Assembly: GCF_039645985.1 (NCBI RefSeq)
Contig: NZ_CP147919.1
Span: 2,790,001 to 2,854,000 of the forward strand
Reading direction: 5' to 3'
DNA: 64,000 bases
From: Sulfurimonas sp. HSL3-7
Lineage (GTDB): Bacteria > Campylobacterota > Campylobacteria > Campylobacterales > Sulfurimonadaceae
Shown here: one piece after another, positions 24,625 through 43,262 of the stretch
Layout of the letters: each line of letters opens with the position of its first letter
Numbering within the stretch: position 1 is the first letter of the stretch
Program-made: the position numbers and the translations under genes
Notes under the pieces: model-generated
What the model saw: the letters and a program-made list of their open reading frames with translations, nothing else
Database searches by the model: none
Told to the model about the DNA's origin: nothing

Positions 24625-24656
24625 TTAACATTCTTGTAACACTCTTTTGATACGCT
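24625..24656 (+). promoter_or_regulatory. TTAACA-type direct-repeat promoter, DUF2202 gene
   Basis: TTAACA (24625-24630) and GTAACA (24636-24641) are 11 bp apart and end 9 nt before TACGCT (24651-24656), a poor -10 box. This is the weakest of the seven promoters in the window that share this geometry, placed 34 nt before the DUF2202 gene. Confidence 0.6.
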
Positions 24657-24689: not shown

Positions 24690-25373
24690 ATGAGACATAC
24701 TTTGAAAACAGGTGCCGCCCTGCTCACAATACTCTATCTTTTTACGGGGTGTGACAGTTCGACAACATCGGGAACAACAGACAGTTCCCTTCTCGGCCTC
24801 TCCGGCTACGACAAGATCGATTTGAATACCACGCAGAAAGAGTCACTGGCCTACATGTGGCACGAAGAGAAGTTGGCACACGACCTCTATCTCGCACTCA
24901 ATGCGGTTAACCCCTCTATGCCGCTGGCGATGATCCCGGTGAAATCGGAGATCATCCATATGCAGTATGTCGAAGATCTCGTCGCATGGTACGATATCGA
25001 TGTCACGAATATACCGGATTACAATACCAGCTACTCCGCAGCAGAGCTGGACGCACTGGCGCCCGGAGAGTTCGCGATGGACGAAGTCCAGAATCTCTAT
25101 AATACCCTCTATAACCTGGGCGAGGAAAACCTGACGAGTAGCCTGCAGGTAGGCTGTATAGTAGAGGTCACGGACGTCAATGATCTTAACCGCTATATCG
25201 AGCAGGCCGGAGAGAACCGGGCGCTCATAGACACCTTTGAGATTCTTCGAGCAGGCAGCTACAAACACTATTGGAAGTTCCATGATACGCTTAAAGTTAT
25301 TGATGGCATCGGATGTGCTTTTTTCCGCGACGGCGTTGACTATAACAAAACCGGCGAATACCCGGTCAACTGA
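24690..25373 (+). CDS. DUF2202 ferritin-like lipoprotein
   Basis: A 227-residue protein with a lipoprotein signal (LFTGC, Cys21), so it is probably anchored to a membrane in the periplasm. The main domain matches DUF2202, a ferritin-like four-helix fold. YMWHEEKLAHDLY (about 55-67) and SEIIHMQYVEDL (about 85-96) have the Glu...His spacing expected of a di-iron site. The biochemical role of DUF2202 is not established; iron or oxidant handling is inference. AAGGGGAG lies upstream of the ATG. The promoter carries the TTAACA repeats of the neighbouring putative regulon. Confidence 0.8.
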   Translation: MRHTLKTGAALLTILYLFTGCDSSTTSGTTDSSLLGLSGYDKIDLNTTQKESLAYMWHEEKLAHDLYLALNAVNPSMPLAMIPVKSEIIHMQYVEDLVAWYDIDVTNIPDYNTSYSAAELDALAPGEFAMDEVQNLYNTLYNLGEENLTSSLQVGCIVEVTDVNDLNRYIEQAGENRALIDTFEILRAGSYKHYWKFHDTLKVIDGIGCAFFRDGVDYNKTGEYPVN

Positions 25374-25407: not shown

Positions 25408-25439
25408 TTAACGATACGTTAACACCCTTGCGGCATTAT
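25408..25439 (+). promoter_or_regulatory. TTAACA-type direct-repeat promoter, first two-component operon
   Basis: TTAACG (25408-25413) and TTAACA (25419-25424) are 11 bp apart and end 9 nt before CATTAT (25434-25439). The geometry is identical to six other promoters in the window. Its position before the response regulator gene suggests autoregulation. Confidence 0.75.
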
Positions 25440-25520
25440 TGCTTCGGCCGAAGTCTACAATCTACCTAAACCTGATTTTGCTACACTTTGGCCTATTCAA
25501 TACCTCTGAAAAGGCATATG

Positions 25521-26174
25521 ATGGTACGATTGCTACTAGTCGAAGATGACAAGGATCTGGCCGAGACCCTTGTCGAACTGTTGGAGCTCGAGGGCTTTGA
25601 TATCTGCTGGGTCGGTGACGGCGAGGCGGCGCTTGATGCCACACTAGGCCACACTTACGACCTGCTTCTACTCGATGTCAACGTCCCTTTTGTCAACGGT
25701 TTCGAGCTCCTTCACGGGCTCCGTGAGAGCGGTGACGAAACCCCGGCCATCTTTATCACCGCTATGAACGATATCGCCTCGCTTTCGCAAGGATTTGAAG
25801 TCGGTGCAGATGACTACATCAAAAAGCCCTTTGATTTTGACGAACTTACCGTGCGTATCTATTCGCTTATACGCAAACGCCTCAAGATCAAAAACAACAC
25901 CATCACTGCCGGCAGTTTTCACTTCCACATCGATAGCAATGAACTCTACAAGGACAACAACTTTATGCCTCTTACCCCTGCCGAACGGAGATTGGCCGCT
26001 CTGCTCTTCAAGCATATGAATACGACCCTCTCCAAAGAGACCATATTGCTTGAACTTTCCGAGGGTGAAGAGGCCAGCGAAGGCGCCTTGCGCGTACACA
26101 TTAACAAGCTGCGCAAAACAGGACTTCCTATTCAGACCATTAAAGGGACAGGATACCGTCTTGCATCAGCATGA
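25521..26174 (+). CDS. OmpR-family response regulator (pair 1)
   Basis: A 217-residue regulator. The receiver domain (1-115) has the acidic pocket ED9D10, phospho-acceptor D52 in LLLDVNVP, T80 and K101/K102 in YIKKPF. The winged-helix output domain (about 125-217) ends with GTGYRL. It is closely similar in layout to the second regulator at 41513. Two adjacent ATGs (25518 and 25521) are possible; the second has better spacing to AAAAGG. The kinase gene overlaps its end. It probably binds the TTAACA repeats found upstream of its own and six other transcription units; that link is inferred. Confidence 0.88.
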   Translation: MVRLLLVEDDKDLAETLVELLELEGFDICWVGDGEAALDATLGHTYDLLLLDVNVPFVNGFELLHGLRESGDETPAIFITAMNDIASLSQGFEVGADDYIKKPFDFDELTVRIYSLIRKRLKIKNNTITAGSFHFHIDSNELYKDNNFMPLTPAERRLAALLFKHMNTTLSKETILLELSEGEEASEGALRVHINKLRKTGLPIQTIKGTGYRLASA

Positions 26175-27216
26175 AAAACGGTCATTCTGGAAGATTTTTC
26201 TGGCCTATTTCGGCAGTGTCGCCCTGTTGATCCTGCTTGCCGGACACTTCTACTACAAAGAACAGTACCAGCAGCGTATCAAAGACGAACACTTCGCCAT
26301 CATCGAATATGCCAGACATCTCAAAATGAACGAACCGATCGTTTCGGCGGACATCACCCATGAGATCGTCAAAAAAGAGATCAAGCATTTTTCTATGGAC
26401 ACCCTGATCATCAAAGAGAACTACTTTGAGAAGTATATCCCCAATAACTGGCATGAAAGTTATCTCTATATCAAAAAAGACACGCGCCGTTTCAAGGAAC
26501 ATATTAGCGCATTGAAGCAGCAGATCATCGTTGTACAGCTCTTGCTGCTTTCGCTTTTTGCCCTGATCAGTCTGCTACTGACCAATTCGGCGCTGCGCCC
26601 GATGAAGGAGATGATCTTCAGGCTCGACAAGTTCACCAAAGACCTGATTCACGACCTCAACACCCCGCTTACCACCATCAAGCTCAATCTCAAGCTGCTT
26701 GAAAAAGATGCCGCATACCCTGAGAACAAGGCGCTCAAACGGATCGGTAAAAGTGCCTACGAGATCTCGGAACTGCATCAGAATCTCACAGTATTGCTTG
26801 AAGAGGACACGTTCCTGCTTGAAGAGATCGATGTATGCACGATCGCAGCCGAGCTTCTCTGCGATTATGAAGCGATCTATCCCGCACTGCGGTTTAAAAC
26901 AGCGTGTAGCGCCTTAAAAAGCAACCTCAACGAAACCGCCCTGAAACAGATCCTGCACAATCTTCTCTCCAATGCCTGCCGATACAACAGAGAAAATGGC
27001 CATATCAATATTTGGAATAAGGGTAAAACGCTCTACATCCAGGACAGCGGTACCGGCATCACAAATCCCGAACGTATCTTTGAGCGCAACTACTCCGAGC
27101 AGAGCAGCAGCGGCATCGGTCTGGACATCGTCAAACGTCTCTGCGATGCGATGAAAATCAAAATAAGCGTAGACTCATCTGCCAACGGGACGACGATCTC
27201 ACTGACCTTCAGTTGA
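26161..27216 (+). CDS. Sensor histidine kinase (pair 1), TTG start
   Basis: A 351-residue kinase with two membrane segments (about 11-28 and 122-140) and a periplasmic sensor loop of about 93 residues. The H-box is LIHDLNTPLTTIKLNLKLL with H164, followed by a HATPase domain with the N-box NLLSNACRYN, DSGTGI and a short GIGLDIV. The H-box HDLNTP departs from the usual HELRTP. No ATG fits; a TTG at 26161 with AGGATACC 7 nt upstream is the best start and overlaps the regulator by 14 nt. The second kinase in the window uses the same arrangement. Confidence 0.85.
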   Translation: MHQHEKRSFWKIFLAYFGSVALLILLAGHFYYKEQYQQRIKDEHFAIIEYARHLKMNEPIVSADITHEIVKKEIKHFSMDTLIIKENYFEKYIPNNWHESYLYIKKDTRRFKEHISALKQQIIVVQLLLLSLFALISLLLTNSALRPMKEMIFRLDKFTKDLIHDLNTPLTTIKLNLKLLEKDAAYPENKALKRIGKSAYEISELHQNLTVLLEEDTFLLEEIDVCTIAAELLCDYEAIYPALRFKTACSALKSNLNETALKQILHNLLSNACRYNRENGHINIWNKGKTLYIQDSGTGITNPERIFERNYSEQSSSGIGLDIVKRLCDAMKIKISVDSSANGTTISLTFS

Positions 27217-27218
27217 TC

Positions 27219-27992
27219 CTATTTAAGCACATACGCCAGGGTGACCTTGAACTCTTTGGGAAAATCAAATATTGCGCTGTCGACCTCTATCGGAAAGCTT
27301 TTTGCAATCGCCTCAAAGGCGGACTTCTTGAATACTTTTCTTCCTGAAATCAATGTGATATTGCCGACACTCCCATCGGAAGAGAGCTGAAACCCCACCT
27401 TAACACTGCCCTCTATTCCTCTTCTTCTGGCACTTTTCGGGTACGATTTGTTGCGGTTTATTCTTTCTACCAGAGAGGCGAGAAACCTGTCCTGTCTGGC
27501 TTGAAGCAGCTCTTTGTCGAGCTCTTTTTGGATCCTTGTCTCGGCTGCTTTCTCCATCTTCGGTTCGGTGTTTGCGGGGTGCTCGGCCTGCTCCGGTTCT
27601 ACCTTTGCGATCTCCTGCGTTGCGGTCGGCTCCGGGATCGTCTCTGCTGCCTCCTCTTCAAAGGCTTCCGGTACAGGCTCCGGCAGAGGCTCCTTTTTTG
27701 GTATTGCTTTTTCGACCTTCTTCTCGATCCTCTTTTCAACTCTTTTCGTGACCTTTTTTTCGACTCTCTTCTCGATCTTTTTTTCGGCTCTCTTATCAGT
27801 CTTCTTCTCTTTTGGCACATGCTTCTGAACCGGCAACTGTTCGTCGATTACTGAAAAACACACTCTCCCGACATGCTCATCCGGGCTTTTCTTGTCACAG
27901 TAGTTATCGTCATTCGACTGATAGATAATCAAACCGGCAACGGAGAGGTACAGAACCAGAGTAATCAAAAAAGAGCTGACGTGTCTATTCAT
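27219..27992 (-). CDS. TonB-like energy transducer
   Basis: A 257-residue protein with an N-terminal anchor (about 6-24), a long periplasmic linker rich in Lys/Glu/Arg repeats (KKVEKRIEKKVEK type, residues 60-105) then Pro/Glu, and a C-terminal TonB domain (about 165-257). The latter contains YPKSARRRGIEGSVKVGFQL and FPIEVDSAIFDFPKEFKVTL. It transmits proton-motive energy from ExbB/ExbD to outer-membrane receptors. It is the last gene of the ExbB-ExbD-RND-TonB unit and most likely serves the TonB-dependent receptor encoded at 38072-40144. Confidence 0.88.
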   Translation of the reverse strand: MNRHVSSFLITLVLYLSVAGLIIYQSNDDNYCDKKSPDEHVGRVCFSVIDEQLPVQKHVPKEKKTDKRAEKKIEKRVEKKVTKRVEKRIEKKVEKAIPKKEPLPEPVPEAFEEEAAETIPEPTATQEIAKVEPEQAEHPANTEPKMEKAAETRIQKELDKELLQARQDRFLASLVERINRNKSYPKSARRRGIEGSVKVGFQLSSDGSVGNITLISGRKVFKKSAFEAIAKSFPIEVDSAIFDFPKEFKVTLAYVLK

Positions 27993-30900: not shown

Positions 30901-31065
30901 ACCTGTGTAGGAGCCCCGTACGGTTATGGAGTCGGGTTCTATCGTCGGCGATATCTCTTTCGGGATCTGTGTGTACGCATAGGCGCCGAGTGCCAAAAGA
31001 AGAAAGAACAGCGTATAGTTGATTTTGTAGTTTTCAAGGAAAAACTTTAACGTTCTGTCAAACAT
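27985..31065 (-). CDS. RND-family permease (AcrB/HAE1-like) without adaptor
   Basis: A 1026-residue resistance-nodulation-division protein with twelve membrane segments and two large periplasmic loops. The TM4 proton-relay motif is present as AIGIIVDDAIVVSENI (about 383-398). The paired motif in TM10, GALGLAGVIVNDGIIM, is the usual second-half counterpart. RND pumps normally work with a membrane-fusion adaptor and an outer-membrane channel; neither is encoded nearby. It is tightly packed between exbD (1-nt overlap) and tonB (8-nt overlap). The substrate is unknown; periplasmic or envelope export, or an uptake-linked role, are both possible. Confidence 0.87.
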   Translation of the reverse strand: MFDRTLKFFLENYKINYTLFFLLLALGAYAYTQIPKEISPTIEPDSITVRGSYTGASADLLNKIAVQEIEDKCKNIDGIDAISSVISPGKFSITLELDKREDKSRITDDVKDAISLIAVNLPSDMDEPLIRGVGHARAIMQVSILSPNVPRGSLIAHAKKLKSRLLSINDVADVTIFGDSEQFYEILIDEKKVNAYNLSLSDVLKTLSELSNIFPLGQLDNKKEKYYISTYNGKKVSDELEETILNINEQHVLLKNIARVQKRYEDSSTLASMNAENSITLAISQNPNGDAIKIADEIKTFISGLNNEAIQYNIRVDQSPIIKDSLNIIISNILLGIILISLLTVMLINARIAFIIALGIPTSFVMGAIYFYFTGYSINVNSLIGVLIAIGIIVDDAIVVSENIQQYIEKGYPPKEAALLGTKEMAKPVTIASVTTLFSFIPLLMLSGTLGEIIRLIPIAFSALIIASLLESFVFLPIHASHTLSKESRTLSWQKINKVYAKLLRGLIRYQKSFLLLFVIIVPVLIYASIKESRFHMFEKFDSPNINITFKADSTATLEDSLAVVQTIEKDILDEKERFSVKHVSSTAGYRRSATGGAEMYPYVGYISIELEKKRASNFFEQYITPVLSPYDDGGEKVRTASSQAISADLRGWLKKRDYRQRFDLKNLMVLETGMKNTKADIMIGVVSDDYTEAMRAIREIEEVFGGLAGIKHYGNTIKLGPKEIKLKINSYGESLGITEEYVGAYISKLFLSMKIGTIFDDKELIDVKVKSVNYRDDLESFKNLEIPLRNNILVKLKDVCDFQTIESLERLVKDDGETTFYFYANIDPSQTTAGEVLERVAPTFSRLKSEGIKLKFKGEREQKETLEIEMVLASLLALVLIFIAILYLFNSVRETLIVMSVIPFSLLGVYAGHFVMGLHISLPSLIGALGLAGVIVNDGIIMMSTLKMTQAKEDIYTLASKRLRPIMLTSITTIIGLSSLMFFATQQAVTFQPLAVAIGFGLFWGTLLNLFYLPVIHNFLRGRYE

Positions 31066-31463
31066 CAGATCCGGGCACCTTGCCCCTCCCTGCGAGTAAT
31101 GATGCCGATATTATTGAACTTTTTCTGCTTTAGCGTATCAAGCAGAACGACAAAAAGATCAAACCTGGCCTCTTTGTCGCAGCTGATGTTTATCGGTGTC
31201 TGAGCGTCATATTTTGCGATACGGGCATCGATCTCTTTCAACTCTGTTCGGGTACCGTCGAAAAACATTTCCCCGTTCTCTTTGATCGTAATCATAATCT
31301 TTTTTTTGTGTTCTTGTTTATCGGCGCTTTTAGCACTCGGAAGCTCAACAGGTATGACCCCTTTGGCGACAAAGGTGGCCGTTGTCAGCACGATGACAAG
31401 CAGGACAAGCATGATATCGATGAAAGGGACGACATTGATCGATTCAAACTTTTTGATATTCAT
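31065..31463 (-). CDS. exbD: ExbD/TolR-family protein
   Basis: A 132-residue protein with one N-terminal membrane segment containing the conserved acidic residue in VVPFIDIMLVLLVIVL (Asp16), the proton-path residue of ExbD. A periplasmic domain follows. It forms the energising complex with ExbB for TonB. It overlaps exbB by 20 nt and the RND gene by 1 nt. Confidence 0.9.
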   Translation of the reverse strand: MNIKKFESINVVPFIDIMLVLLVIVLTTATFVAKGVIPVELPSAKSADKQEHKKKIMITIKENGEMFFDGTRTELKEIDARIAKYDAQTPINISCDKEARFDLFVVLLDTLKQKKFNNIGIITRREGQGARI

Positions 31464-31896
31464 CTTTTTCCTTTTGGATGATCTCCCATTTGGCTATCAG
31501 AACCTCCATCTTCCTGACAATGTGCGTATGAAAGAATATGGCCGGAATGGCGACAGCCAGCCCCATACCCGTTGCTTTCAATGCAAGTGCGAGTGAGGTC
31601 ATGATGCTTTTTGCATCCAGGTCACCGCTCTGGCCCATAACATAGAAGGTGATAATGATCCCGAAGACTGTTCCGAGCAGCCCGATGTAGGGTGCGTTGG
31701 AGCCGAATGAGGAGATGATGCTTGTGTTGTTGGTCAGATCGATCTCCAGTGCCTCTTTGAGTTTGTATTTCTCCAGATCGACCGTACGGAAAAACATCAA
31801 TCTTTCGATCCAGAACCATATCGTGAGGAAGCTCATAAAACCCAGTATCCCGATAACCCCGTAATCGAGGCCATCTTGTAATAATTCTATGTTCAT
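31444..31896 (-). CDS. exbB: ExbB/TolQ/MotA-family proton channel protein
   Basis: A 150-residue protein, short for ExbB, with three membrane segments (about 13-30, 67-88 and 100-125). The family signature SNAPYIGLLGTVFGIIITF (about 65-83) and ALALKATGMGLAVAIPAIFF (about 101-120) are clear. It drives TonB with ExbD. It is the first gene after an internal promoter with TTAACA repeats, so the exbBD-RND-tonB half can be expressed separately from the upstream redox genes. Confidence 0.9.
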   Translation of the reverse strand: MNIELLQDGLDYGVIGILGFMSFLTIWFWIERLMFFRTVDLEKYKLKEALEIDLTNNTSIISSFGSNAPYIGLLGTVFGIIITFYVMGQSGDLDAKSIMTSLALALKATGMGLAVAIPAIFFHTHIVRKMEVLIAKWEIIQKEKDEYQKV

Positions 31897-31922: not shown

Positions 31923-31954
31923 ATTTTATAAACAGAGTGTTAATTTTGTGTTAA
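31923..31954 (-). promoter_or_regulatory. TTAACA-type direct-repeat promoter, exbB unit
   Basis: On the minus strand two perfect TTAACA hexamers (31954-31949 and 31943-31938) are 11 bp apart and end 9 nt before TAAAAT (31928-31923), 27 nt upstream of exbB. It is nearly identical to the site before the TonB-dependent receptor gene. Confidence 0.8.
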
Positions 31955-31993: not shown

Positions 31994-32803
31994 CTATCCG
32001 TTCATCTTTTGATAGTCAAAAGAATCCGCTCCCAGAATGGCAGCACCGTAAGAGGTCGTGATCTGCGGGTGTTCCGGTATAAATATTTTTTTACCCAGCT
32101 CATTCTCTATGGCATTGACAAGCCCTCCATTCAGGGCAGGCCCCCCGTCAAAATAGATCCCCTCTCTGATACCGACCCTTTTGACCAGTTTAACGATTCT
32201 CTTCGCAATAGAGTAGTGCACACCGCAGACGATATCTTCGACATTGTGGTTGTTCCCCAGCAATCCTATGATCTCGGACTCTGCGAAAACGGCGCAGGTA
32301 CTGTTGATCGAAAGCGGGGTGCCGATGGCGTGAAAATGGCGCTCGCCCAGCTCTTCCACACCGATCTCGAGGTTCATCGCACAGGCATCAAGAAACTTTC
32401 CGGTCCCGGCCGCACACCGGTCGTTCATCGCAAAGTTCACGACATTTCCCGTATCATCGAGCGAGATCGCCTTGCTGTCCTGCCCGCCGATATTGATGAT
32501 CGTCTTAATCTCACCGAACTCCCTGGCTGCCGCGACGGCCCCGATGGCATTCGCCGTTATCTCGCTGATGTTCTCGTCCGCCTCTTTGAAGAGTTTCCGG
32601 CCATACCCCGTTGCCACGGTGTAGACAATCTCCTCCTTTGCGATCTTCAGCTCCCTGAGCAGGTCATCGAGCGTCTGGTGCGCATATTTGTAAAACATGC
32701 TGCCGCTACCGCTGATCCGCTGTCCAACCAATGCTCTGTTTTCATCAATGATGGTTATTTTGATGGCCGTAGAGCCTATATCGATACCGGCAAAATAGTT
32801 CAT
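31994..32803 (-). CDS. ATP-dependent activator of a double-cubane/2-hydroxyacyl-CoA dehydratase-like enzyme
   Basis: A 269-residue member of the BadF/HgdC ASKHA ATPase family. The phosphate-binding motif GIDIGSTAIK (6-15) and INIGGQDSKA (about 103-112) are present. The two cysteines that would bridge one [4Fe-4S] cluster across a homodimer are C130 in NDRCAAGTGKF and C170 in NSTCAVFAESEI. Such activators inject electrons at very low potential into a partner, coupled to ATP hydrolysis. The partner is the gene just upstream, which overlaps by 4 nt. Known relatives include HgdC and the double-cubane activator of Carboxydothermus; E. coli YjiL is a homologue of unknown role. Confidence 0.88.
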   Translation of the reverse strand: MNYFAGIDIGSTAIKITIIDENRALVGQRISGSGSMFYKYAHQTLDDLLRELKIAKEEIVYTVATGYGRKLFKEADENISEITANAIGAVAAAREFGEIKTIINIGGQDSKAISLDDTGNVVNFAMNDRCAAGTGKFLDACAMNLEIGVEELGERHFHAIGTPLSINSTCAVFAESEIIGLLGNNHNVEDIVCGVHYSIAKRIVKLVKRVGIREGIYFDGGPALNGGLVNAIENELGKKIFIPEHPQITTSYGAAILGADSFDYQKMNG

Positions 32804-34077
32804 CTTCTCTTCCTGTTCTTTATTTTCAGAGACTCGACAAAGGCTTCAACCCTTGTACTGAGCTGCCCGTGCTGGGACGGGCTGTAGTCACTCTCGATGT
32901 AGAGAATGGAGATCCCCTCTTTCTCCATTGCCTCCAGCACGCTTCGCTGTTCAAGCTCGTAGACCGTACACCCGGCAAAAGCCTGATAGATCACCCCGTC
33001 GGCATTGTGTGACTTTACCAGTTCGATGATGCGCCGTATGCGGTCATCGTTTTTGGTGAAGACAGGGCAGGTGCAGGCTTTCAGGTATTTGTCCGCCAGC
33101 GAATCGATCATATCGTTCACAAACCACTCATCGACAGCGACCCTGTCGTTAAACATCCGGTTCGAGCTGCAGGTCTCGTCCGCAACGATGATCGCGTCCG
33201 ACTCCTCAATGATCAGGGGGATCTTGTAGTTCGGGAAGATCGGGGGCGAACCGGTATAAACGATCCTTGGGCTCACCCTTCCGGCGGCATGCACCTTCTC
33301 TTTTGCTCTCTGTTCAAGTTCCTCGACAAGCGCTTCGGTCGCCTCTATCCAGCTGTCTATTCTGTCGAAGAAAAAAGCGTTTGTGACCAGGAACATATCA
33401 TTGCCGAGGATCGGCACGGCGCTGCTCTTTCTCAGCTCGCTGAGTTGATGGTAAAGCGACTGCGCATAGCCTATTTTTGAGATGGAGGCTCTCAGCTTTT
33501 TTCTGCTCAGTTTCTTGCCCGTTTTGGCAGAGAGGTCAGCAGAAAAGCCCCTGATACTTCGCCGGAAAAACTCCCGGCTGATCTCGCTCTCTTTTGTTCT
33601 CGGAAAATCGACGTCAACCACATCGTAGCCGAACCCCTCGATGGTACTGCCCGCCTTTGTCTTTTGGTCGCAGGTCGTCGGCGAGTAGATCATATCGGGC
33701 CTGTCCGTGATGTTCTTCGATGCCAGATGGCCCACGCTCGCCTTGACCAGCGGGCATGATTTCTGAGGCAGAAGATCGCTGCCGATCTCATCGTCCGTAT
33801 AGAAACCGTTGCAGAGGCGTATCGGCACGCCGTCGAGCGCATAGATGATCTCCGAGGGGATCTGAATACACATCGTCCCGACTTTTACTTTGTCGCTGTG
33901 CAGCGCTTTCTGATGGCAATAGACCTCTTCAAAGAGATCATAGAAATAGCCCATCGCTTTCGGCGGCTCTTTGAAGGACTCTTTCAGGGTGTTCAAGACC
34001 GTTATCGCCTCCATAGCCTTGTGCCGGTTCTGTTTCTCGGCGGGTGTCTCTATCTCGCGGTTGAGCCGGTTACTCAT
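32800..34077 (-). CDS. HgdB/double-cubane-cluster-protein-like reductase component
   Basis: A 425-residue protein of the 2-hydroxyglutaryl-CoA dehydratase D-component family. Nine cysteines are visible at 54, 70, 89, 108, 136, 303, 335, 337 and 370, several in family-type contexts (GTMCIQIP, QKSCPLVKA, YSPTTCDQK, ADETCSSN, CTCPVF). There is only one subunit gene, not the HgdA/HgdB pair. That favours the homodimeric double-cubane-cluster proteins, which carry an [8Fe-9S] cluster and reduce small molecules, over an acyl-CoA dehydratase. E. coli YjiM is another single-subunit relative. It overlaps both neighbours. The physiological substrate is unknown. Confidence 0.82.
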   Translation of the reverse strand: MSNRLNREIETPAEKQNRHKAMEAITVLNTLKESFKEPPKAMGYFYDLFEEVYCHQKALHSDKVKVGTMCIQIPSEIIYALDGVPIRLCNGFYTDDEIGSDLLPQKSCPLVKASVGHLASKNITDRPDMIYSPTTCDQKTKAGSTIEGFGYDVVDVDFPRTKESEISREFFRRSIRGFSADLSAKTGKKLSRKKLRASISKIGYAQSLYHQLSELRKSSAVPILGNDMFLVTNAFFFDRIDSWIEATEALVEELEQRAKEKVHAAGRVSPRIVYTGSPPIFPNYKIPLIIEESDAIIVADETCSSNRMFNDRVAVDEWFVNDMIDSLADKYLKACTCPVFTKNDDRIRRIIELVKSHNADGVIYQAFAGCTVYELEQRSVLEAMEKEGISILYIESDYSPSQHGQLSTRVEAFVESLKIKNRKRR

Positions 34078-35056
34078 CTCTATCTCCCTTCGGTTTTTCT
34101 ATCCCCATTCTCTTTTCAAACCCCTGCCTCGTCGAGCTGAATGCTTTGAGATTCAAAATATCAAAATGCAACGCATCATCCTCGGGACATGCCGCCACAC
34201 ATTTCAGACACAGAATACAGTCATCCCTGAGTATATCCGTGCTTGTCACATCATCCGCAATATCTTTTATCTGCATATCGCAGACACTGTAGCAGTCGCC
34301 GCAACGGGTGCATTTGCTCCCCTCTTTCCTAAGCTTTACGATCGAGGACCTGGCGAAGATGAAGTGCAGGGCGCTCATCGGACAGAAGAAGCAGAAAAAG
34401 CGTTTTTTGACAAAACTACCGGCCAGAAAAAGCCCTGCAAATATCATCCCGATGGCCGTCAGGACCATCGCCGTCTTTGTCGAGAAGTCTATCGCCCACT
34501 GCGAAAAGTCCCCACTGAACATGGGGCTTATGATACGGGCAGGGCATATCTGGCAGAAGGCGGAGGACCACTCGCCTCCGAGAACACCGACACCTATCAG
34601 TAGCGGCACCATAAGCACGATCGCCAGAAAGATATATTTGATTTTTGAAAGTTTCTCAAACTGCTGCTGTGTATAGGTCGAATACCTGATCCCCAGACTC
34701 TTTCTAAGCGCAGTCAGCCAGTCCTGGAATGTTCCAAACGGACAGACATACCCGCACCAGGCTTTGTTCAAAAAGATAAACCAGAAGAGAAAGGTCAGCA
34801 CGCCGAAGAGTACGGCGATCCCTGCGCCGCCGAGCAGGATCTTCGCAGGCATGGCGAGCTGATGCTGCAGAGGCATAAGATAGCAGGCCCCGCCGCTCTG
34901 GGCGTTGTATGGGCAGGCAAAAATAGGCAGTTTGGACCCAAGATCCACGGCAAAATAGCCGCCGTAGACAAAAAGGATGAAAGAGACCAGCTGTATCCAG
35001 AACCGCACTTTGGCAAGGTTCATGTTGTTGATCAGATCTTTTACTTTACGCTTCAT
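34070..35056 (-). CDS. NapH-like membrane polyferredoxin
   Basis: A 328-residue protein with about five membrane segments. It has cytoplasmic-type cysteine motifs CGYVCPFGTFQDW (about 117-129), CQICPA (about 187-192) and CFFCPMSALHF (about 245-255), followed by two [4Fe-4S] motifs CTRCGDCYSVC (about 273-283) and CILCLKCVAAC (about 303-313). It resembles NapH, which passes electrons from quinol. No nap genes are present. Its overlaps with the larger polyferredoxin and the double-cubane-like gene suggest it hands electrons to the cytoplasmic reductase system; that is inference. Confidence 0.84.
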   Translation of the reverse strand: MKRKVKDLINNMNLAKVRFWIQLVSFILFVYGGYFAVDLGSKLPIFACPYNAQSGGACYLMPLQHQLAMPAKILLGGAGIAVLFGVLTFLFWFIFLNKAWCGYVCPFGTFQDWLTALRKSLGIRYSTYTQQQFEKLSKIKYIFLAIVLMVPLLIGVGVLGGEWSSAFCQICPARIISPMFSGDFSQWAIDFSTKTAMVLTAIGMIFAGLFLAGSFVKKRFFCFFCPMSALHFIFARSSIVKLRKEGSKCTRCGDCYSVCDMQIKDIADDVTSTDILRDDCILCLKCVAACPEDDALHFDILNLKAFSSTRQGFEKRMGIEKPKGDRDE

Positions 35057-37385
35057 ATCTCAGCTCGCTAAAGGGTTTTGTCCTGTTTCTGCGGAATCGG
35101 TACACAACCGTTCCCGAAATAAGAAACGCCAGTGTGATCAGCATAAGCGCATAACCGTATGACTCATAGTCGCTGCTGTTCGGATAGAAGTAGACCGGAT
35201 AGGTCAGAATATACGTCTCGTCTGCTCTGGGCGCATGGGTCAATGTGACGAGAAGCTCCCCTTGGTGGCGCTTGTCAAACGCGTTCCACTCCGGAAAATA
35301 GTCTCTGATAATGGTGAACCTGGCGATCCCTTTTTCGTCTGTTCTGATCTTTTTGACCCAGCCGCTCCCCGTCGATACGGTGATCTCCGCGTCGACAAGA
35401 GGGCTGTTTTTGAAGAGTGCCTGAAAGGCAAGCTCGTCGCCCATGGCGTGTCTGTAGAAGAAGCTCTCCTCTCTGTCGTTTTTGATTCTCAGCAGGTCTA
35501 TTTTCGTCCTATCGGTATAGAGCGCTCTTTTTACCTCTTGCGTATAACGTTCTTCACTCCCGTGGCGACCGTTAAGATACTCCAGTTTTGCGACTTTGTA
35601 GAAGAGCTTTCCGTCTCTTACTAGCTCATTTTTGGCATAAATGGTGTAATAACCGTTTCTTGGAACCTCAAAAATGTATGCCGCACCGCTGAGCGGGTGG
35701 TCAACCTTTGCATCTTTCAGATTTTGCTCCGTATCGTAGTAAAAAACCTCGATATCCGTCGCCGGCACCGTTCTCTTCTCTTTGAGATCGTCTCCGTACG
35801 CCAGCCATGATTTTTTTGTCGGAACGGCACCTTTACCGCCGGCGCCATGTGATCCCATACCGCCGCCATACGCCTTTGCTTTTTGCGCGGGATCGCTCAG
35901 CGTGAAGTAGATCGGCGCGTCATCTTTCAGCTTCACGGCCGGCCATTCTGCTGTCGCGGCAGGTTTGGCTCGGTTTGTCCCGCCGTGCATAGTGCTTTTG
36001 GCACCGTGGCTTCCGTGTCCGCCCTGTTTCGCGCCGTAGGTCTTGAAGACATAACCTGAGTAGGCGTTCAGACCGATAAAAAAGAAGATCAGTAACGAGG
36101 CAAAAACATAGCCGAATATCTTTCTTACCCGTGAAGCCTCGATCAGTTTCAGGCGTTTGTAGATCAAGATAAACGCCCAGACAACGCCGATCCATTTGAG
36201 CAGGCCGAAATAACCGAGCCAGCCGTCACCCCGGTGTGCCAACGGCGAGACCTCTGCGACAAAACCGAAAGCCTGCGCAAAACCGGTTACGATCTCCTGG
36301 TAATCATGTGTAAAAAAGCTACCCAGCGTATGGCCCAGCGAGCCCAAAATAAAAAGCGGTGCATAGCCGTAACCCAGTGTCGAAAAGGTGGTCGAATACT
36401 CTTTTTTCAGTGTCTTTGATGCCAAAAAAAGTCCGAGCATGGAGAAAAAGACGGTCAACAGCAGCGCGTAGCCAAAGGCGAATCCGCCCGCGTATTCACT
36501 CATCCCAAAGTATTCGGCCGTCCTGTTCCAGATCATCGTGTCGGCGATGTTGGTTCGGTTAAGTCCATGGGCAAAACTCATCGAGATAGGAATGGAACCC
36601 AGTATAAGGATGTAGGTCCATACCTCTGCATTCAGGGTCTTGAACTTGCTGAAAAGCTGCTCTGAGGGTTTCGTGATCGAAAACTTCACCGCTTCACAGG
36701 CCCCGGCACACTCCATGCAGAGCGTACAGTCATCGGCCTGGTTCTTCTTCGCAAAACTGAAAGGCTTGAGGTTGTACGGGCATGCCGAGGCGCACTCAAA
36801 GGTCCGGCACTCACTGCAGCTGTCGGTATAGGTCTCCAGCTTTGTAAAAGAGAGCTTGTCGTACGCTCTGGTCAGGGTGCCGATAGGGCAGATATATTTA
36901 CAGTAGCTCATCTCTTTGTAGAGGTAGTAGAAGAGAAAAGCGAGCAGCGTCATCCCGCTGAACATCGCCGCTGTCGCAAGCGGCGATTTCCAGAACGAAG
37001 GGAAGGTGTAGTAGATGCCCCACCACCCGATAACGAGCAGAAGAATACCGATGTAGCGGTTCTGCATCCATTTGGGCATCGTTTTTTTAAGCCCGAGTTT
37101 CGTGATATATTTTCCAAAAAAACCGTGCGGACAGATGCCGCAGAAGATCCGTCCGAAGCTCGGCAGCGTCGCCACCATAAAAAGTGCCCAGAAGATGCCC
37201 CAGAAAAGTGCTCCCGTAAAGATATTCTCTTTGCCCGGATGGGCAAAACCGAAATAGAGCGCATAGAAGAAGAATGCCGCTACGACGACTCTGAGCGTCA
37301 TTAAGAAGGTTCTGTTTTTAAACAGAAAGCCCAAAAGAGGTTTGTCAAAAAGATCGTTTTTGTCTCTTTTTATAAAATCTACCAT
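35046..37385 (-). CDS. Polyferredoxin fused to a periplasmic Ig-like/DUF4198-type domain
   Basis: A 779-residue protein. Residues 1-250 are a NosR/CcoG-type polyferredoxin: FCGICPHGFFGK (about 81-92), CKYICPIGTL (about 162-171), CSECRTFECASACP (about 190-203) and CTLCMECAGACE (about 218-229). Further membrane segments fill about 260-450. A Gly/His-rich linker follows, with GGHGSHGAK (about 464) and GGGMGSHGAGGKG (about 515). The C-terminal periplasmic part (about 540-740) has beta-rich sequence like the DUF4198 domains in nickel/cobalt uptake, then a last membrane anchor (about 745-765). The layout suggests electron transfer across the membrane to a periplasmic metal site. CcoG, a relative, is a cupric reductase; the metal here is unknown. 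Confidence 0.75.
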   Translation of the reverse strand: MVDFIKRDKNDLFDKPLLGFLFKNRTFLMTLRVVVAAFFFYALYFGFAHPGKENIFTGALFWGIFWALFMVATLPSFGRIFCGICPHGFFGKYITKLGLKKTMPKWMQNRYIGILLLVIGWWGIYYTFPSFWKSPLATAAMFSGMTLLAFLFYYLYKEMSYCKYICPIGTLTRAYDKLSFTKLETYTDSCSECRTFECASACPYNLKPFSFAKKNQADDCTLCMECAGACEAVKFSITKPSEQLFSKFKTLNAEVWTYILILGSIPISMSFAHGLNRTNIADTMIWNRTAEYFGMSEYAGGFAFGYALLLTVFFSMLGLFLASKTLKKEYSTTFSTLGYGYAPLFILGSLGHTLGSFFTHDYQEIVTGFAQAFGFVAEVSPLAHRGDGWLGYFGLLKWIGVVWAFILIYKRLKLIEASRVRKIFGYVFASLLIFFFIGLNAYSGYVFKTYGAKQGGHGSHGAKSTMHGGTNRAKPAATAEWPAVKLKDDAPIYFTLSDPAQKAKAYGGGMGSHGAGGKGAVPTKKSWLAYGDDLKEKRTVPATDIEVFYYDTEQNLKDAKVDHPLSGAAYIFEVPRNGYYTIYAKNELVRDGKLFYKVAKLEYLNGRHGSEERYTQEVKRALYTDRTKIDLLRIKNDREESFFYRHAMGDELAFQALFKNSPLVDAEITVSTGSGWVKKIRTDEKGIARFTIIRDYFPEWNAFDKRHQGELLVTLTHAPRADETYILTYPVYFYPNSSDYESYGYALMLITLAFLISGTVVYRFRRNRTKPFSELRYEA

Positions 37386-37398
37386 TGTCTACCTTTTT

Positions 37399-38061
37399 TT
37401 ACAGTCTGATCTGACCGTTTACTATCAAAATACCGACAGCCGTCAAAAGCAGCGCTGCCGTGATCTCAATGCCCTTCGTATATCTTTTGAACTCTGTCAA
37501 CAGCCCCCGCACGACATTGGAAAGAAAAAATCCGTAAAACAGAAACGGCACAAGCACCGCACCCGCCCCGAAAGATACCCCCATGCCGACAGCGTTCAAA
37601 ACAGAGCCGCTGTTCGCACTCAATGCGACAAGGGTCAAAACGGGGGCGCACGGGTTTATCGAGACCAGTGCGCCGATCCCGAACAGCCCGAACAGGCTCT
37701 CTGTATGCTTTTTAGGTGCAGTTGGATTGGAGGTGCAGGCTTTTCTCTTGCTGTAAAAGACCCTGTAGAACATAAAAAGGCCCATAACCAATGTCACTGT
37801 CCCCAAAATCCCTTGGAACAGTGCGTTATCGTCGAGTACCGCTTTGACAAATCCCGCACCGCCCAAGGCTAAAACAGCGATCACACTGTAGGTAAAGATG
37901 CGGCCGAGGCTAAAGGGTAAAATGACACGCATAGACTGTTTCACACTCTCTGCGTTGGTCACCAGAAGAGGTGTCAGAAAGGGCATGCAGGCAAACATAC
38001 AGGCCGTACTGCCGTAAGAGAGCCCGACAATAAATAGCGAGAAAAAGGTCATGCTCTGCAT
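37399..38061 (-). CDS. CcdA/TauE-SafE-like membrane protein with paired cysteines
   Basis: A 220-residue protein with about six membrane segments. Cys21 and Cys25 lie in the first (STACMFACMPFLTPL) and a further Cys in NPCAPVLTLV (about 137) in a later one. This resembles the DsbD/CcdA fold, which moves reducing equivalents from cytoplasmic thioredoxin to the periplasm. Pipelines would call it sulfite exporter TauE/SafE or cytochrome c biogenesis protein. Similar proteins accompany CcoG/FixG polyferredoxins in copper handling. It lies 10 nt after the receptor gene and 13 nt before the polyferredoxin. Confidence 0.74.
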   Translation of the reverse strand: MQSMTFFSLFIVGLSYGSTACMFACMPFLTPLLVTNAESVKQSMRVILPFSLGRIFTYSVIAVLALGGAGFVKAVLDDNALFQGILGTVTLVMGLFMFYRVFYSKRKACTSNPTAPKKHTESLFGLFGIGALVSINPCAPVLTLVALSANSGSVLNAVGMGVSFGAGAVLVPFLFYGFFLSNVVRGLLTEFKRYTKGIEITAALLLTAVGILIVNGQIRL

Positions 38062-38071
38062 GCTGGACTAC

Positions 38072-40144
38072 TTAAAACCGGATTCTAAGCCCTGCATAAT
38101 AGGCTCTTGGCGGTGCGACCCGGATCGTCGCATCTGTCTCCATCTCCGCGAGAGCAGAAGAGTTTATGTTCACAAATTGGTAATAGTTTTTGTTCAACAG
38201 GTTGTCGATCCGTCCAAAGATCTCGAACATCTCGTTAAAGCGGTACTCACCTCTGAGGTTCATAACGGCGTATCCGGGCATTTCATGTTCATTCACTTCA
38301 TCTGCGTAGTAACTGCTTTTTGCGTAAACCTCTGCCGAGATCAATGCCGCTTCAGTCGGCTTGTAATGCAGCGTAAAGTCTATCATGTGTTTGGAGGTCC
38401 TCGGAACGCGGTTTCCGGAAAGGTCTTTTCGCGTATATTCAGCTGTTAGTGGTCTATATGGACCGTCAGGATCTTCGGTAACCTGCTGGGATAACACATA
38501 TCTGGTAAAGACCGCATCAAGGTAGGTGTATGCCAGATCGAACGAGAACATCCTGCTTCTGTCACTGTTCATCGAGAGTTCGAAACCCCGGCTTCGCATG
38601 TCGCCGACATTGTCATAATTGCTCTCATTTTCATCGTCGGAAGTGATATAGTTACCCGCAATCCTGCCGATATAATCTTTTCTGTCAAGCTGATAGACCG
38701 ACGCATTATAGGCCAGTGTTGAAACGCTGCCTCGTGCCCCCAGTTCGTAGTTGTAGGTCGTCTCGACGCCGATCTCCGAAGGGATATCAAGAGCAGGATC
38801 AGCTGCCAGAGCGACATTGTTCACACTCATCTGATAGGCGGTCGGTGTTCTGAAGCCTGTCGAGAAGTTGGCGTACAAGGCGTTGTTCCCAGAGAGCGCA
38901 TAGTTTAGTCCGGCGCGGTATGAAGGGACTTTATAGGTCGGACTAACATTGTTCGTACTGTCTGTATTGTCAATATATTCTTGCCCGATATAGTCGTATC
39001 TGAAGTTGAACGTTGTCGTCAGACTTTCGGTCAATTGATAGATCAGCTCGGTATAGACGGCATTGATCGCCTCTTTTGTCTCATAATCGCTGGTCAACGT
39101 TCCGTCGGCAGCCAAATAACGTAACTCATCCGTCGTATTTCGCTGCAGGTCAACACCGCCCATCAGCGCCAATGGACCAAAAACCGTTCGGTATTCGCCC
39201 TTGGCCCCGTCCTGATTCCACACTTCGTTCGCATCATATTTCAGACGTGCCGATTTGTAGCTTTTGTCATCCCGGTACTTGTGCAGCTGCAGCATCAGGT
39301 TCGACTCCTCTCCAAAGTCTTTTGAGTAGCTCGCAAACGCTTTGATCAGGTCACTGTCATAATAGCCGGTGTAGGAGTACTCTCCCGCGCTTTTCGGGTT
39401 TTCCTCCGCTTCGATCGTGCCACTTACGCTGTTGCCATCCCCTGTTTTTCGATTGGTATAATCAAGGCCGACGGTCACATCGCTGGTCTCGTCAATGTAG
39501 TAGGTATATTTTCCGTTAGCCGATTTAATCGTCGAATAGGCATCATCCCAGTAGCCATCGGTGTCTCTATAACTCGCTTGGAGCTGCAGCGCCGAATTCC
39601 CCAAGCTCTGGTTGGTCGTCGCCAACACCCGCTTTGAATTAAAACTTCCCAGCTCACCCTCTATTTTAGAAGCGCTTTTGCCTTTCGGTTTTTTCGTGGT
39701 AATGACGATCGCACCGGCAAGAGCATCGTTTCCGTAGAGATACGACGCCCCGCCCTTGATCACCTTGATCGATTCAATATTATCGAGGTCAACATTGATC
39801 CGACCTGCCGTCTCCTGGACCGGTACCCCGTCAATAACAACCGCCACACCCGGTTTTTCACCCATGTAATTCTGGTTGTCGATACCCCTGATATGTATTT
39901 TTACCTCAGCCGTGCCTACGTTGGAGAGTGTCACACCCGGTACACCGACAAGAATATCACCAAGGGTCTTCGGATTGATCTCTTCAACCTCTTCACCACT
40001 GATAACAGCGACACTCGAGACCTCTGTTTTTGTATCCAGTTTATCGTCGATCGTTGACGATTCGACCTGGATGGTCCCAAGATCTGCGGCAGAAAGGTTG
40101 ATCGCCAATGCACAAACAGCTGAAAAATAGATCTTCTTGTTCAT
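38072..40144 (-). CDS. TonB-dependent outer-membrane receptor
   Basis: A 690-residue receptor with a signal peptide (cleavage near Ala20) and a plug domain (about 40-160) containing VAVVIDGVPVQETAG and IKVIKGGASYLYGNDALAGAI. A 22-strand barrel ends in the aromatic sorting signal GLRIRF. The plug begins with a TonB-box-like stretch near LGTIQVES. The barrel resembles catecholate or vitamin B12/metal-complex receptors, but the ligand cannot be read from the sequence. AAGGGGA lies upstream of the ATG. It is the first gene of the redox operon, so its cargo is probably the substrate or metal of that system. I see no Fur box in front of it. Confidence 0.9.
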   Translation of the reverse strand: MNKKIYFSAVCALAINLSAADLGTIQVESSTIDDKLDTKTEVSSVAVISGEEVEEINPKTLGDILVGVPGVTLSNVGTAEVKIHIRGIDNQNYMGEKPGVAVVIDGVPVQETAGRINVDLDNIESIKVIKGGASYLYGNDALAGAIVITTKKPKGKSASKIEGELGSFNSKRVLATTNQSLGNSALQLQASYRDTDGYWDDAYSTIKSANGKYTYYIDETSDVTVGLDYTNRKTGDGNSVSGTIEAEENPKSAGEYSYTGYYDSDLIKAFASYSKDFGEESNLMLQLHKYRDDKSYKSARLKYDANEVWNQDGAKGEYRTVFGPLALMGGVDLQRNTTDELRYLAADGTLTSDYETKEAINAVYTELIYQLTESLTTTFNFRYDYIGQEYIDNTDSTNNVSPTYKVPSYRAGLNYALSGNNALYANFSTGFRTPTAYQMSVNNVALAADPALDIPSEIGVETTYNYELGARGSVSTLAYNASVYQLDRKDYIGRIAGNYITSDDENESNYDNVGDMRSRGFELSMNSDRSRMFSFDLAYTYLDAVFTRYVLSQQVTEDPDGPYRPLTAEYTRKDLSGNRVPRTSKHMIDFTLHYKPTEAALISAEVYAKSSYYADEVNEHEMPGYAVMNLRGEYRFNEMFEIFGRIDNLLNKNYYQFVNINSSALAEMETDATIRVAPPRAYYAGLRIRF

Positions 40145-40181: not shown

Positions 40182-40213
40182 AGTTTAATAGGAGAGTGTT
40201 AATTTTATGTTAA
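40182..40213 (-). promoter_or_regulatory. TTAACA-type direct-repeat promoter, TonB-dependent receptor operon
   Basis: On the minus strand two perfect TTAACA hexamers (40213-40208 and 40202-40197) are 11 bp apart and end 9 nt before TAAACT (40187-40182), 38 nt upstream of the receptor ATG. A second copy of the same architecture on the other strand drives the divergent cytochrome gene. Confidence 0.8.
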
Positions 40214-40343: not shown

Positions 40344-40375
40344 TTAACATTCTCTTAACAACGTCACACTATGAT
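40344..40375 (+). promoter_or_regulatory. TTAACA-type direct-repeat promoter, cytochrome c gene
   Basis: Two perfect TTAACA hexamers (40344-40349 and 40355-40360) are 11 bp apart and end 9 nt before TATGAT (40370-40375), 25 nt before the cytochrome ATG. With the opposite-strand site at 40182-40213 it makes the 255-nt intergenic region a divergent control region. Confidence 0.82.
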
Positions 40376-40399: not shown

Positions 40400-40804
40400 A
40401 TGAAAAAAACAGCCGCCCTACTCCTGTTTGCGACATCGCTCTTTGCCGTTGACGGCTACAAGGTCTATCAGGAGAACTGTAAACAATGCCATATCGAAAT
40501 GATCTCGAAAACCGAGACCCTCAAGACATTTAAGACACTCAAGGCACCGCCGATGGTCGAGGTCTCAAAACAGCTCAAAAGCAATATCAGAATTGGGGAT
40601 GATGATGAAGATGTACACCGTTTCACGGTGCTCTCTTTCATCAAGGAGTATGTCAAAAAGCCCTCTCTGGACTACAGTATGTGCAATCCGGGGGCCATAG
40701 ACCGCTTCGGCATTATGCCGGCGCAGACCCAGCTGAGCGAAGAGGAGCGTCAGGCCGTAGCGGAGTGGATCTACGACCGTTACGAAGGTATCGATTTCAA
40801 ATAA
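40400..40804 (+). CDS. Exported c-type cytochrome, one heme
   Basis: A 134-residue protein with a signal peptide (residues 1-17, cleaved near LFAVDG) and one heme motif CKQCH (about 31-35). A Met for the sixth ligand is likely in FGIMPAQTQLS (about 105). The end, LSEEERQAVAEWIYDRY, is the normal C-terminal helix of a class I cytochrome. AAAAAGGATACTACT precedes the ATG. It could pass electrons between a periplasmic partner of the adjacent redox system and the b-type cytochrome encoded convergently, whose end lies 2 nt away. Confidence 0.85.
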   Translation: MKKTAALLLFATSLFAVDGYKVYQENCKQCHIEMISKTETLKTFKTLKAPPMVEVSKQLKSNIRIGDDDEDVHRFTVLSFIKEYVKKPSLDYSMCNPGAIDRFGIMPAQTQLSEEERQAVAEWIYDRYEGIDFK

Positions 40805-41512: not shown

Positions 41513-42154
41513 ATGGCTAAAAAAATACTTTTATTGGAAGACGACACACTATTAGCAGAGACACTGCAAGAGCTCCTGAGCAGCGAGGGGTATGAAGTCA
41601 CACTGGTCCCCGACGGCGGGGCAGCGGCTGATGCCTCGTATGATACGCCGTTTGACCTCTATATCTTTGATATCAATGTCCCCGAGATCAACGGGCTTGA
41701 GCTTTTAGAGGGCCTGCGGGGGGCGGAAGACAAGACGCCGGCTATCTTTATCAGTGCACTGGTCGACCTTGACTCCATCACCAAGGGCTTTGAAGTCGGG
41801 GCCGATGATTACATCAAAAAGCCCTTCTTTCCCGAAGAGCTTCTCCTGCGGGTCAATGCCAAACTGGCACCAAAAGCACCTTCCGCTATCCGATACGGCG
41901 ACCTTGAATTCGACCCCCGGAAAAAGCTGCTTCGTAAAGAGGGGCGGGTGCTTGCGCTCGGCGAGGTACAGGAGAAGCTTTTTGAGCTCTTCATCCATAA
42001 TATCGGTCAGGTCATCGACAAAGATATTCTGATGGAGAGCCTTGAAAAACCTTCGCCGACGGCACTCCGTGTTGCCCTGACCAAGCTCAAACAGACCACC
42101 GGGCTCGACATAAAAAACCTTCGCGGTGTAGGATACATTCTTGAGCCGCGTTGA
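41513..42154 (+). CDS. OmpR-family response regulator (pair 2)
   Basis: A 213-residue regulator paralogous to the one at 25521. Receiver residues are ED10D11, phospho-acceptor D53 in FDINVPEING and the lysines of YIKKPF. The winged-helix domain (about 122-213) ends in GVGYIL. There is no Shine-Dalgarno sequence before the ATG and the predicted -10 box is almost adjacent, so the message is probably leaderless. The kinase gene overlaps by 14 nt. I infer, but cannot show, that it binds the same TTAACA direct repeats as its paralogue. Confidence 0.87.
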   Translation: MAKKILLLEDDTLLAETLQELLSSEGYEVTLVPDGGAAADASYDTPFDLYIFDINVPEINGLELLEGLRGAEDKTPAIFISALVDLDSITKGFEVGADDYIKKPFFPEELLLRVNAKLAPKAPSAIRYGDLEFDPRKKLLRKEGRVLALGEVQEKLFELFIHNIGQVIDKDILMESLEKPSPTALRVALTKLKQTTGLDIKNLRGVGYILEPR

Positions 42155-43196
42155 GCTGGAGTCCTTTCTAAAGGGGTTTCTCCTTTTTTTCGCCTCTTTG
42201 AGCATCCTGATCACAACACTCTTTTACATCAGCTATACCAAAGAGCTCAAGACACTTGACGACACCCTTTTCTCAGAGATGCGCCTCTGCAGTTTCAACC
42301 TGAAATGCGAACGTTATGCGATCGACTTTGTTCCTTTGAAGAATCAGACCCTCTACACCCTTTACAAAGACGACAGCGGCCTTTACAGCTACTTTCCTAT
42401 TCCAGGTGCAAACGATTATCTTATGGAGTTGCACCTCTCTGCCGAAGCGTATAACAATGCACGTCAGGCGCTGCAGGATGAAGCGCTCCTGGAGTTTGCT
42501 GCGGTCATCACGGTCGTCTTGATCCTCTCCGTCATCTTTTCACTCTACGCCATCTACCCGCTTCGAAACGCCCTCTTGCTTACCCGGGAGTTCATTAAAG
42601 ACATACTGCACGATTTCAACACCCCGCTCGCCGCCCTGCGCCTTAACAGCGCTATGCTCAAGCGCGAGATCGGCGAGAACGACAAGATAACGCGTATTGA
42701 ACAGAGTGTACAGAATGTCCTGGACCTTCAGCAGCACCTGCGTTCCTATCTGCATGATCATACCGGCCAGAAAGAGCTTATTGACCTCAAACTACTCATC
42801 AGCGAGAGAGTCTCGATGCTGGAAAAAAGCTATCCCGATATTCACTTCGGACTGACCATAGAAAAAGTCAATATCATGACCAACAGAAAGGCCTTTACCC
42901 GTATCATCGACAATCTCCTGACCAATGCCGCCAAGTACAACAAGCCGCACGGTTCTGTTGATATAATATTCGAACGAAACCGTTCAACCCTCCGTATTGT
43001 CGATACAGGGAAGGGGATAAAAAACCCAAAACGCATCTTTGAACGCTTCTATAAAGAGCAGGAACGCGGTATCGGTATCGGCCTGCATATCGTTAAAAAG
43101 CTCTCCGACGAATTGGGTATTAAAACCAGGGTGGAGAGTGAAATTGGGCAGGGGACCATCTTCAGTCTGGATCTCTCGTCGCTTACAGTCGGCTAA
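42141..43196 (+). CDS. Sensor histidine kinase (pair 2), TTG start
   Basis: A 351-residue kinase, the same length as its paralogue at 26161. Two membrane segments (about 9-31 and 118-138) flank a short periplasmic loop with C50 and C55, a possible redox- or metal-sensing pair. The H-box is ILHDFNTPLAALRLN with H157, then a HATPase domain with NLLTNAAKYN, DTGKGI and GIGIGLHIVKKL. The TTG start lies 8 nt after GGATACATT inside the regulator gene, mirroring pair 1. The cysteines are not present in the loop of the first kinase. Confidence 0.85.
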   Translation: MSRVELESFLKGFLLFFASLSILITTLFYISYTKELKTLDDTLFSEMRLCSFNLKCERYAIDFVPLKNQTLYTLYKDDSGLYSYFPIPGANDYLMELHLSAEAYNNARQALQDEALLEFAAVITVVLILSVIFSLYAIYPLRNALLLTREFIKDILHDFNTPLAALRLNSAMLKREIGENDKITRIEQSVQNVLDLQQHLRSYLHDHTGQKELIDLKLLISERVSMLEKSYPDIHFGLTIEKVNIMTNRKAFTRIIDNLLTNAAKYNKPHGSVDIIFERNRSTLRIVDTGKGIKNPKRIFERFYKEQERGIGIGLHIVKKLSDELGIKTRVESEIGQGTIFSLDLSSLTVG

Positions 43197-43235: not shown

Positions 43236-43262
43236 TCAACTATCAAAAAAAAAGGAAAACAC

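Follow-up and report, generated by a model that had tools for sequence, protein, structure and literature searches.

Why a gene for a TonB-dependent outer-membrane receptor should head an operon that also encodes a double-cubane-type protein and its ATP-dependent activase is the question raised by this locus. Double-cubane proteins (DCCPs) reduce small molecules in vitro and their biological role is unsettled, and a literature search found no paper linking them to TonB-dependent uptake. The locus was analysed within a stretch of 64,000 nt from Sulfurimonas sp. HSL3-7, here called the window, in which a sequence-only reading had suspected an undescribed system. We conclude that this is a real, conserved and undescribed system, for which we infer a mechanism: with about even odds (roughly 0.5), the module takes up metal through TonB, most likely copper held in tight chelates, and brings an ATP-driven reductase of its own from which electrons flow outward.

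The six ORFs on the minus strand from 40144 to 31994 lie where they had been placed, separated by gaps of 10-13 bp or overlapping by 4-11 bp, and their positions together with Pfam and NCBIfam matches bear out the proposed set: receptor, CcdA-like protein, two membrane ferredoxin proteins (PFdx1 and PFdx2), DCCP-like protein and activase, in that order (Table 1). After a spacing of 97 bp from the activase gene come ExbB, ExbD, an RND permease and TonB. The three energising genes had been seen correctly, but the permease gene between ExbD and TonB had been omitted. This permease is a recurrent partner of the module, present in 21 loci of the neighbourhood set; no adaptor protein gene stands beside it at this locus. 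An Rfam search near the operon gave no match and no riboswitch.

Table 1. Features of the module locus and its surroundings (positions in the window)
Feature	Position	Strand	Evidence or remark
TonB-dependent outer-membrane receptor (TBDR), 690 aa	38072..40144	-	First gene of the operon; PF00593 2.9e-43, PF07715
CcdA/DsbD_2-like membrane protein, 220 aa	37399..38061	-	PF13386 3.4e-18; alignment
PFdx1, 779 aa	35046..37385	-	Fer4_5, DUF4198 trace; alignment; structure model and Foldseek
PFdx2, NapH-like membrane ferredoxin, 328 aa	34070..35056	-	NCBIfam; alignment
DCCP-like single-subunit double-cubane-type protein, HGD-D, 425 aa	32800..34077	-	PF06050 1.2e-89; NF040772 321.6 bits
ATP-dependent activase, 269 aa	31994..32803	-	TIGR00241 220 bits, above cut-off; PDB 4eht 3e-60
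ExbB	31444..31896	-	TIGR02805 above cut-off
ExbD	31065..31463	-	TIGR02804 above cut-off
RND permease, 1026 aa	27985..31065	-	PF00873 1.5e-138
TonB-like protein	27219..27992	-	PF03544 2.4e-12; TIGR01352 above cut-off
Box TTAACATAAAATTAACA before TBDR	40197..40213	-	-10 TAAACT at 40187-40182
Box TTAACACAAAATTAACA before ExbB	31938..31954	-	-10 TAAAAT at 31928-31923
Divergent box TTAACATTCTCTTAACA before cytochrome c gene	40344..40360	+	Arrangement repeated in L095
Periplasmic c-type cytochrome, 134 aa, regulon member	40400..40804	+	PF13442/PF00034; box 40 bp upstream
Box TTAACGATACGTTAACA, 1 mismatch, before response regulator	25408..25424	+	
OmpR-family response regulator	25488..26174	+	PF00072, PF00486; true start probably ATG near 25518
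Sensor histidine kinase partner	26050..27216	+	PF02518, PF00512; start codon uncertain
Box TTAACATTCTTGTAACA, 1 mismatch, before DUF2202 gene	24625..24641	+	
DUF2202 protein, regulon member	24690..25373	+	PF09968 1.8e-19

The DCCP-like protein carries nine cysteines (residues 54, 70, 89, 108, 136, 303, 335, 337 and 370), the number read previously, of which seven are invariant across 26 homologues with identities down to 33%. It matches the Carboxydothermus DCCP (PDB 7yyl and 6eno) over its full length with an E-value of 1e-59 and with seven cysteines aligned, and it shares with that protein the HGD-D family, the single subunit and an ATPase partner. It differs in being only about one-third identical, in belonging to a clade of its own whose genes accompany those for membrane ferredoxins and a TonB receptor, and in scoring below the curated cut-off of 350 bits for the NCBIfam double_cubane model NF040772; because of this score the protein is filed as DCCP-like. 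A co-regulated gene elsewhere for a second dehydratase subunit had been named as an observation that would speak against the proposed system, and this objection fails, as the complete genome holds one PF06050 (HGD-D) match, the DCCP-like protein itself, and the same search found no second subunit. The activase, encoded by the adjacent gene, matches BcrAD_BadFG and acyl-CoA dehydratase activase models above the cut-off and keeps the motifs NDRCAAG and STC with the two cluster-bridging cysteines (C130 and C170) that had been noted. The E. coli pair YjiM/YjiL likewise joins a DCCP-type protein to an activase, but the YjiM-type locus L157, on a Klebsiella plasmid, lacks the receptor, ferredoxin and CcdA neighbours that the module has, and in a phylogenetic tree the module DCCPs form a single clade (support 100/100) separate from the YjiM-type proteins.

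A scan of 84,980 species genomes, with flanks of 10 kb for neighbour families, yielded 56 module loci, nearly all from Campylobacterota (Sulfurimonas, Sulfurovum, Sulfuricurvum and Arcobacter) and five from a gammaproteobacterial group (MAGs). PFdx2 directly adjoins the DCCP gene in all 54 loci with upstream sequence. Beyond the TBDR, CcdA, PFdx1, PFdx2, DCCP, activase, ExbB/D, TonB and RND families, no family occurs in the flanks of more than 11 loci; response regulators occur in 11, and every other non-module family in six or fewer. The module genes are thus conserved as neighbours, which supports the earlier proposal of a conserved system coupling TonB uptake to a double-cubane-type reductase and disposes of the objection that the neighbours might not be conserved together. 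The activase is missing from L034 and L035, and the same assembly has a second copy with activase (L043, L055).

The gammaproteobacterial loci consist of a compact core of periplasmic domain protein, PFdx2, DCCP, activase and CcdA; upstream of the module in L060 and L061 stand genes for RND-type efflux and His-rich periplasmic proteins, apparently for heavy-metal efflux. Genera are intermixed within the module DCCP clade, and this branching suggests transfer inside the phylum. The loci assigned to Petrimonas (L015) and Polarisedimenticolaceae (L060) are probably mis-binned, because in the tree the DCCPs of these two loci branch from within Campylobacterota and the gammaproteobacterial group. 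The PFdx2 marker was found in 17 of 298 sampled members of the class. In Sulfurovum mangrovi ST1-3 the module lies on a plasmid, on which the receptor gene is annotated as two ORFs (L133:11803-13982), possibly through a frameshift; the annotated activase and RND genes are unbroken.

The membrane proteins of the module indicate where the reducing power may be used. In the CcdA-like protein, C21, C25, C109 and C138 are invariant in the alignment. The two proteins formerly read as membrane polyferredoxins are both NapH-type, but PFdx1 is a composite with a large periplasmic DUF4198-like domain: its long form comprises a NapH-like ferredoxin membrane part, a second TM part, the periplasmic domain (about residues 490-735) and a C-terminal TM segment, and short forms of 312-374 aa, found in many relatives, retain the periplasmic domain and a membrane anchor only. 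The structure model of this domain (pLDDT mostly 80-95) retrieves Zcp with Zn/Co/Cu and a Ni-bound DUF4198 protein in Foldseek, and its modelled fold is of metal-binding type. In PFdx1 forms of about 900 aa, which occur in several relatives including L043, a domain of the copper chaperone NosL (PF05573, 2.1e-16) is inserted just ahead of the periplasmic domain, and a separate NosL gene adjoins L021.

PFdx2 has 16 invariant cysteines, 12 of them common to E. coli NapH and located on the predicted cytoplasmic side. C48, C58, C168 and C171 are invariant and absent from E. coli NapH, and their loops are probably periplasmic because, judged by eye from the charge distribution, they are poor in lysine and arginine. 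The structure model of PFdx2 is poor (pLDDT 57), and cofactors are not placeable from it. Neither protein reaches the cut-off of the NapH family NF007013 (234 bits), PFdx2 scoring 82.6 and PFdx1 28. The NapH, CcoG and NosR-type ferredoxins share with the module proteins the CxxxCP motifs and the two cytoplasmic-side [4Fe-4S] sites; PFdx2 differs from them by the four additional invariant cysteines in predicted periplasmic loops, and PFdx1 by its periplasmic domain, sometimes with NosL. CcoG, itself a membrane ferredoxin protein, is a reported Cu(II) reductase in work cited in PMC8267372.

These proteins bear directly on the direction of electron flow. It had been proposed that electrons pass from quinol through the polyferredoxins to the activase and the DCCP, so that an imported compound is reduced in the cytoplasm. 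This route has in its favour that NCBIfam names NapH-type proteins quinol dehydrogenases and that the DCCP and activase are cytoplasmic. We nevertheless regard it as improbable, since menaquinol is too weak a reductant to supply the activase unless energy is put in, the module contains no conserved inner-membrane importer, and the core periplasmic domain has a metal-binding fold. Outward flow fits the anatomy better, namely the CcdA-like protein, the periplasmic metal-binding-type domain and the PFdx2 cysteines on both predicted membrane faces. The TonB receptor, this periplasmic domain, what may be a conduit for thiols to the outside and the lack of a dedicated inner-membrane importer suggest reduction in the periplasm, in which case the DCCP and activase would be best placed as an ATP-driven source of low-potential electrons acting via PFdx2 and PFdx1. 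That the DCCP is an electron injector, whose very low-potential electrons strip copper or another metal from over-stable periplasmic complexes by way of the membrane ferredoxins, we hold to be a tentative proposal with somewhat less than even odds.

The metal concerned is suggested by the promoters. A direct repeat of 17 bp, TTAACA-N5-TTAACA, stands ahead of both the receptor gene and ExbB, so that the matching promoter noted earlier for ExbB is confirmed as an identical repeat type. Five matches to this box with up to one mismatch occur in the window, versus 0.27 expected. Across loci, a spacing of 5 gives 84 hits and other spacings give 5-23, and 61 of the 62 gene-preceding hits stand before module, regulator or cytochrome genes. 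A -10 element, which was not part of the search pattern, lies at a fixed distance from the box (conserved A 95%, T 97%). Three of the four exact matches in the HSL3-7 genome fall in the module locus, and near matches precede the adjacent response regulator and the DUF2202 gene; the gammaproteobacterial module loci have no box. Response regulator genes with an upstream box are also found in L020, L044, L050, L051, L091 and L103, and adjacency together with these autoregulatory boxes makes the adjacent OmpR-family response regulator probably the regulator of the box. We take the box to resemble the PhoP box of B. subtilis; phosphate starvation was rejected as the signal, as no phosphate genes were recognised among the box targets checked.

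Elsewhere in the HSL3-7 genome, boxes precede a second DUF2202 gene (L081; PF09968 1.9e-27), two DsbD_2 genes, one of them directly upstream of ccoNOP (cbb3 oxidase), and a full-length OprC/NosA-type receptor (L121), which keeps the GACPNRMD motif, has OprC as its best PDB match (9e-14) and scores 168 bits over its full length against TIGR01778, whose curated cut-off is 472. In G058 the box is followed by a TonB-copper-type receptor, under the same curated cut-off, and then by ccoN. In two genomes in which the module was not found (G016 and G035), the single exact box precedes an OprC-type receptor or a DsbD_2-cco operon, from which it appears that the module was recruited into an older copper-supply regulon. 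The tie of the module to a copper regulon is well supported by these sequence comparisons. Copper is favoured because of the regulon and NosL, so that of the earlier suggestion of an imported and reduced substrate or metal complex, the metal complex can be narrowed to copper; the alternative, that the imported metal serves to build the cluster of the DCCP, is unlikely if that metal is copper.

The regulon also bears on copper defence, in which the module would reduce surplus metal and the RND permease would export it. The permease is indeed found in many loci, and metal-efflux-type genes lie near the gammaproteobacterial L060 and L061, but among the regulon targets seen are receptors for import, the TonB-energising genes and the cbb3 operon, and no CopA/CueO-type genes, which leaves this explanation only a slim chance. 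Alternatively, the DCCP might act on a small molecule, for example a nitrogen oxide, and so replace a copper-dependent reaction under copper shortage, while the receptor imports an unrelated co-regulated nutrient. This would agree with the in vitro activity of DCCPs and with the lack of clade II NosZ in the HSL3-7 genome; it is very unlikely in view of how strictly the DCCP gene is coupled to those for the membrane ferredoxin, the periplasmic domain and the receptor, and of the presence of NosZ in more than half of the module genomes. An obligate link to N2O reductase was likewise rejected, as the HSL3-7 genome has no TIGR04246 NosZ and 19 of 50 module genomes have no match.

Several further genes were observed beside boxes or near the module. 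Small secreted EF-hand proteins with Met/Cys-rich tails are box-preceded in G022 (L126:3578-4000) and G003 (L099) and are possible periplasmic copper-binding proteins. Also in G022, a box precedes an operon for a TolC-like, MacA-like and MacB-like exporter (L125:3599-7873), possibly a ligand exporter in the regulon, and another (L124:2424-5137; also L033:17773-19167) stands ahead of genes for two large membrane proteins that contain c-type haem domains and belong to no named family. Past the cytochrome genes, at 41513-43196 and 43224-44583 of the window, come genes for another pair of response regulator and histidine kinase, for a secreted protein rich in Gln and Met and for an outer-membrane protein; L030 has a similar pair of Met-rich protein and cytochrome b561. 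Near 37.4 kb of L071 in the HSL3-7 genome, a TonB-receptor-like gene is divergent from a ModE-like regulator gene, as judged by eye, possibly for molybdenum or tungsten uptake.

The module receptor has its sole cysteine in the signal peptide, and the mature protein is without cysteine. It scores 29.2 bits in a partial match to TIGR01778 (TonB copper receptor), under the curated cut-off, and lacks the CxxxM site; relatives of the OprC/NosA receptors (PDB 6fok family) in module genomes carry the module's box, but the module receptor belongs to another TBDR subfamily, without the OprC copper-site cysteine. Its nearest solved structures are PqqU/YncD, and a ligand assignment from them was dropped because the matches are weak only. 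Across loci the receptors fall into several subfamilies, but the reductive core does not change, as would fit a single machine that handles more than one metal complex.

Instead of copper, the module may in fact serve another metal, for instance ferric iron. The same architecture would then reduce a very stable ferric chelate, or a complex of another metal, in the periplasm, and the regulon would reflect respiratory demand, as cbb3 oxidase needs haem iron too. The best-scoring families for the module receptor are of siderophore type, and one L021 receptor scores with haemin-type families. Among the rivals iron comes first, as very low potentials are more readily justified when the substrate is a ferric chelate. 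The potentials of ferric siderophores can lie low enough to call for a super-reductant on thermodynamic grounds, and pyoverdine is a known case in which the metal is released by reduction and the ligand recycled through an efflux pump; Cu(II) is easily reduced, and a super-reductant is needed only for very stable complexes. Against this stand the box common to OprC-type copper receptors and cco, the NosL fusions, and the fact that an unsystematic look showed no Fur-type control, and we consider iron unlikely.

In the copper-uptake module that we favour, the receptor, powered by ExbB/ExbD/TonB, would carry a metal chelate into the periplasm. ATP hydrolysis by the activase would push an electron onto the cytoplasmic DCCP, from which low-potential electrons would cross the membrane through PFdx2 and PFdx1, partnered by the CcdA-like protein through thiols. 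The periplasmic DUF4198-like domain, sometimes fused to NosL, would hold the metal during reduction and ligand release; the freed ligand would then be cleared, a task that the RND permease may have, and the metal would supply cbb3 oxidase and, in genomes that encode it, N2O reductase. The neighbouring two-component system would switch the module on through the box, along with other copper-supply genes. The sequences themselves show the module and its conservation, the promoter box that its genes share, the copper genes in the regulon, the metal-binding-type fold and the NosL fusions. We infer that the substrate is copper, that the signal is copper starvation, which way the electrons flow, what the RND permease does and which response regulator binds the box.

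The closest described arrangement is the CrtA/CrpH operon of Bordetella. In B. pertussis, cruR-crtA-crpH is a copper-starvation operon in which a TonB receptor for chelated copper and a membrane reductase serve haem-copper oxidases (PMC12914433, PMC13038864). The likeness lies in the joining of a TonB-dependent receptor to a membrane reductase. However, CrpH is a PepSY_TM haem protein, unrelated to the reductase of the module, and the Bordetella operon is not described as having a polyferredoxin, a double-cubane protein, an activase or a CcdA-like partner; conversely, Pfam gave no PepSY_TM match in any module gene tested.

Overall, one branch of the double-cubane proteins can now be placed in a fixed genetic setting, with a signature of its regulation and a metal as candidate, and each of these is testable. 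If the proposed mechanism is true, it would give a double-cubane branch its first physiological role and reveal a new way to power nutrient uptake, in which bacteria spend ATP on making a super-reductant for metal acquisition. It would also mean that electron chemistry of the nitrogenase-like kind can be made to operate across a membrane, and it would show how sulfur-oxidising bacteria of sulfidic water may obtain copper for cbb3 oxidase and N2O reductase.
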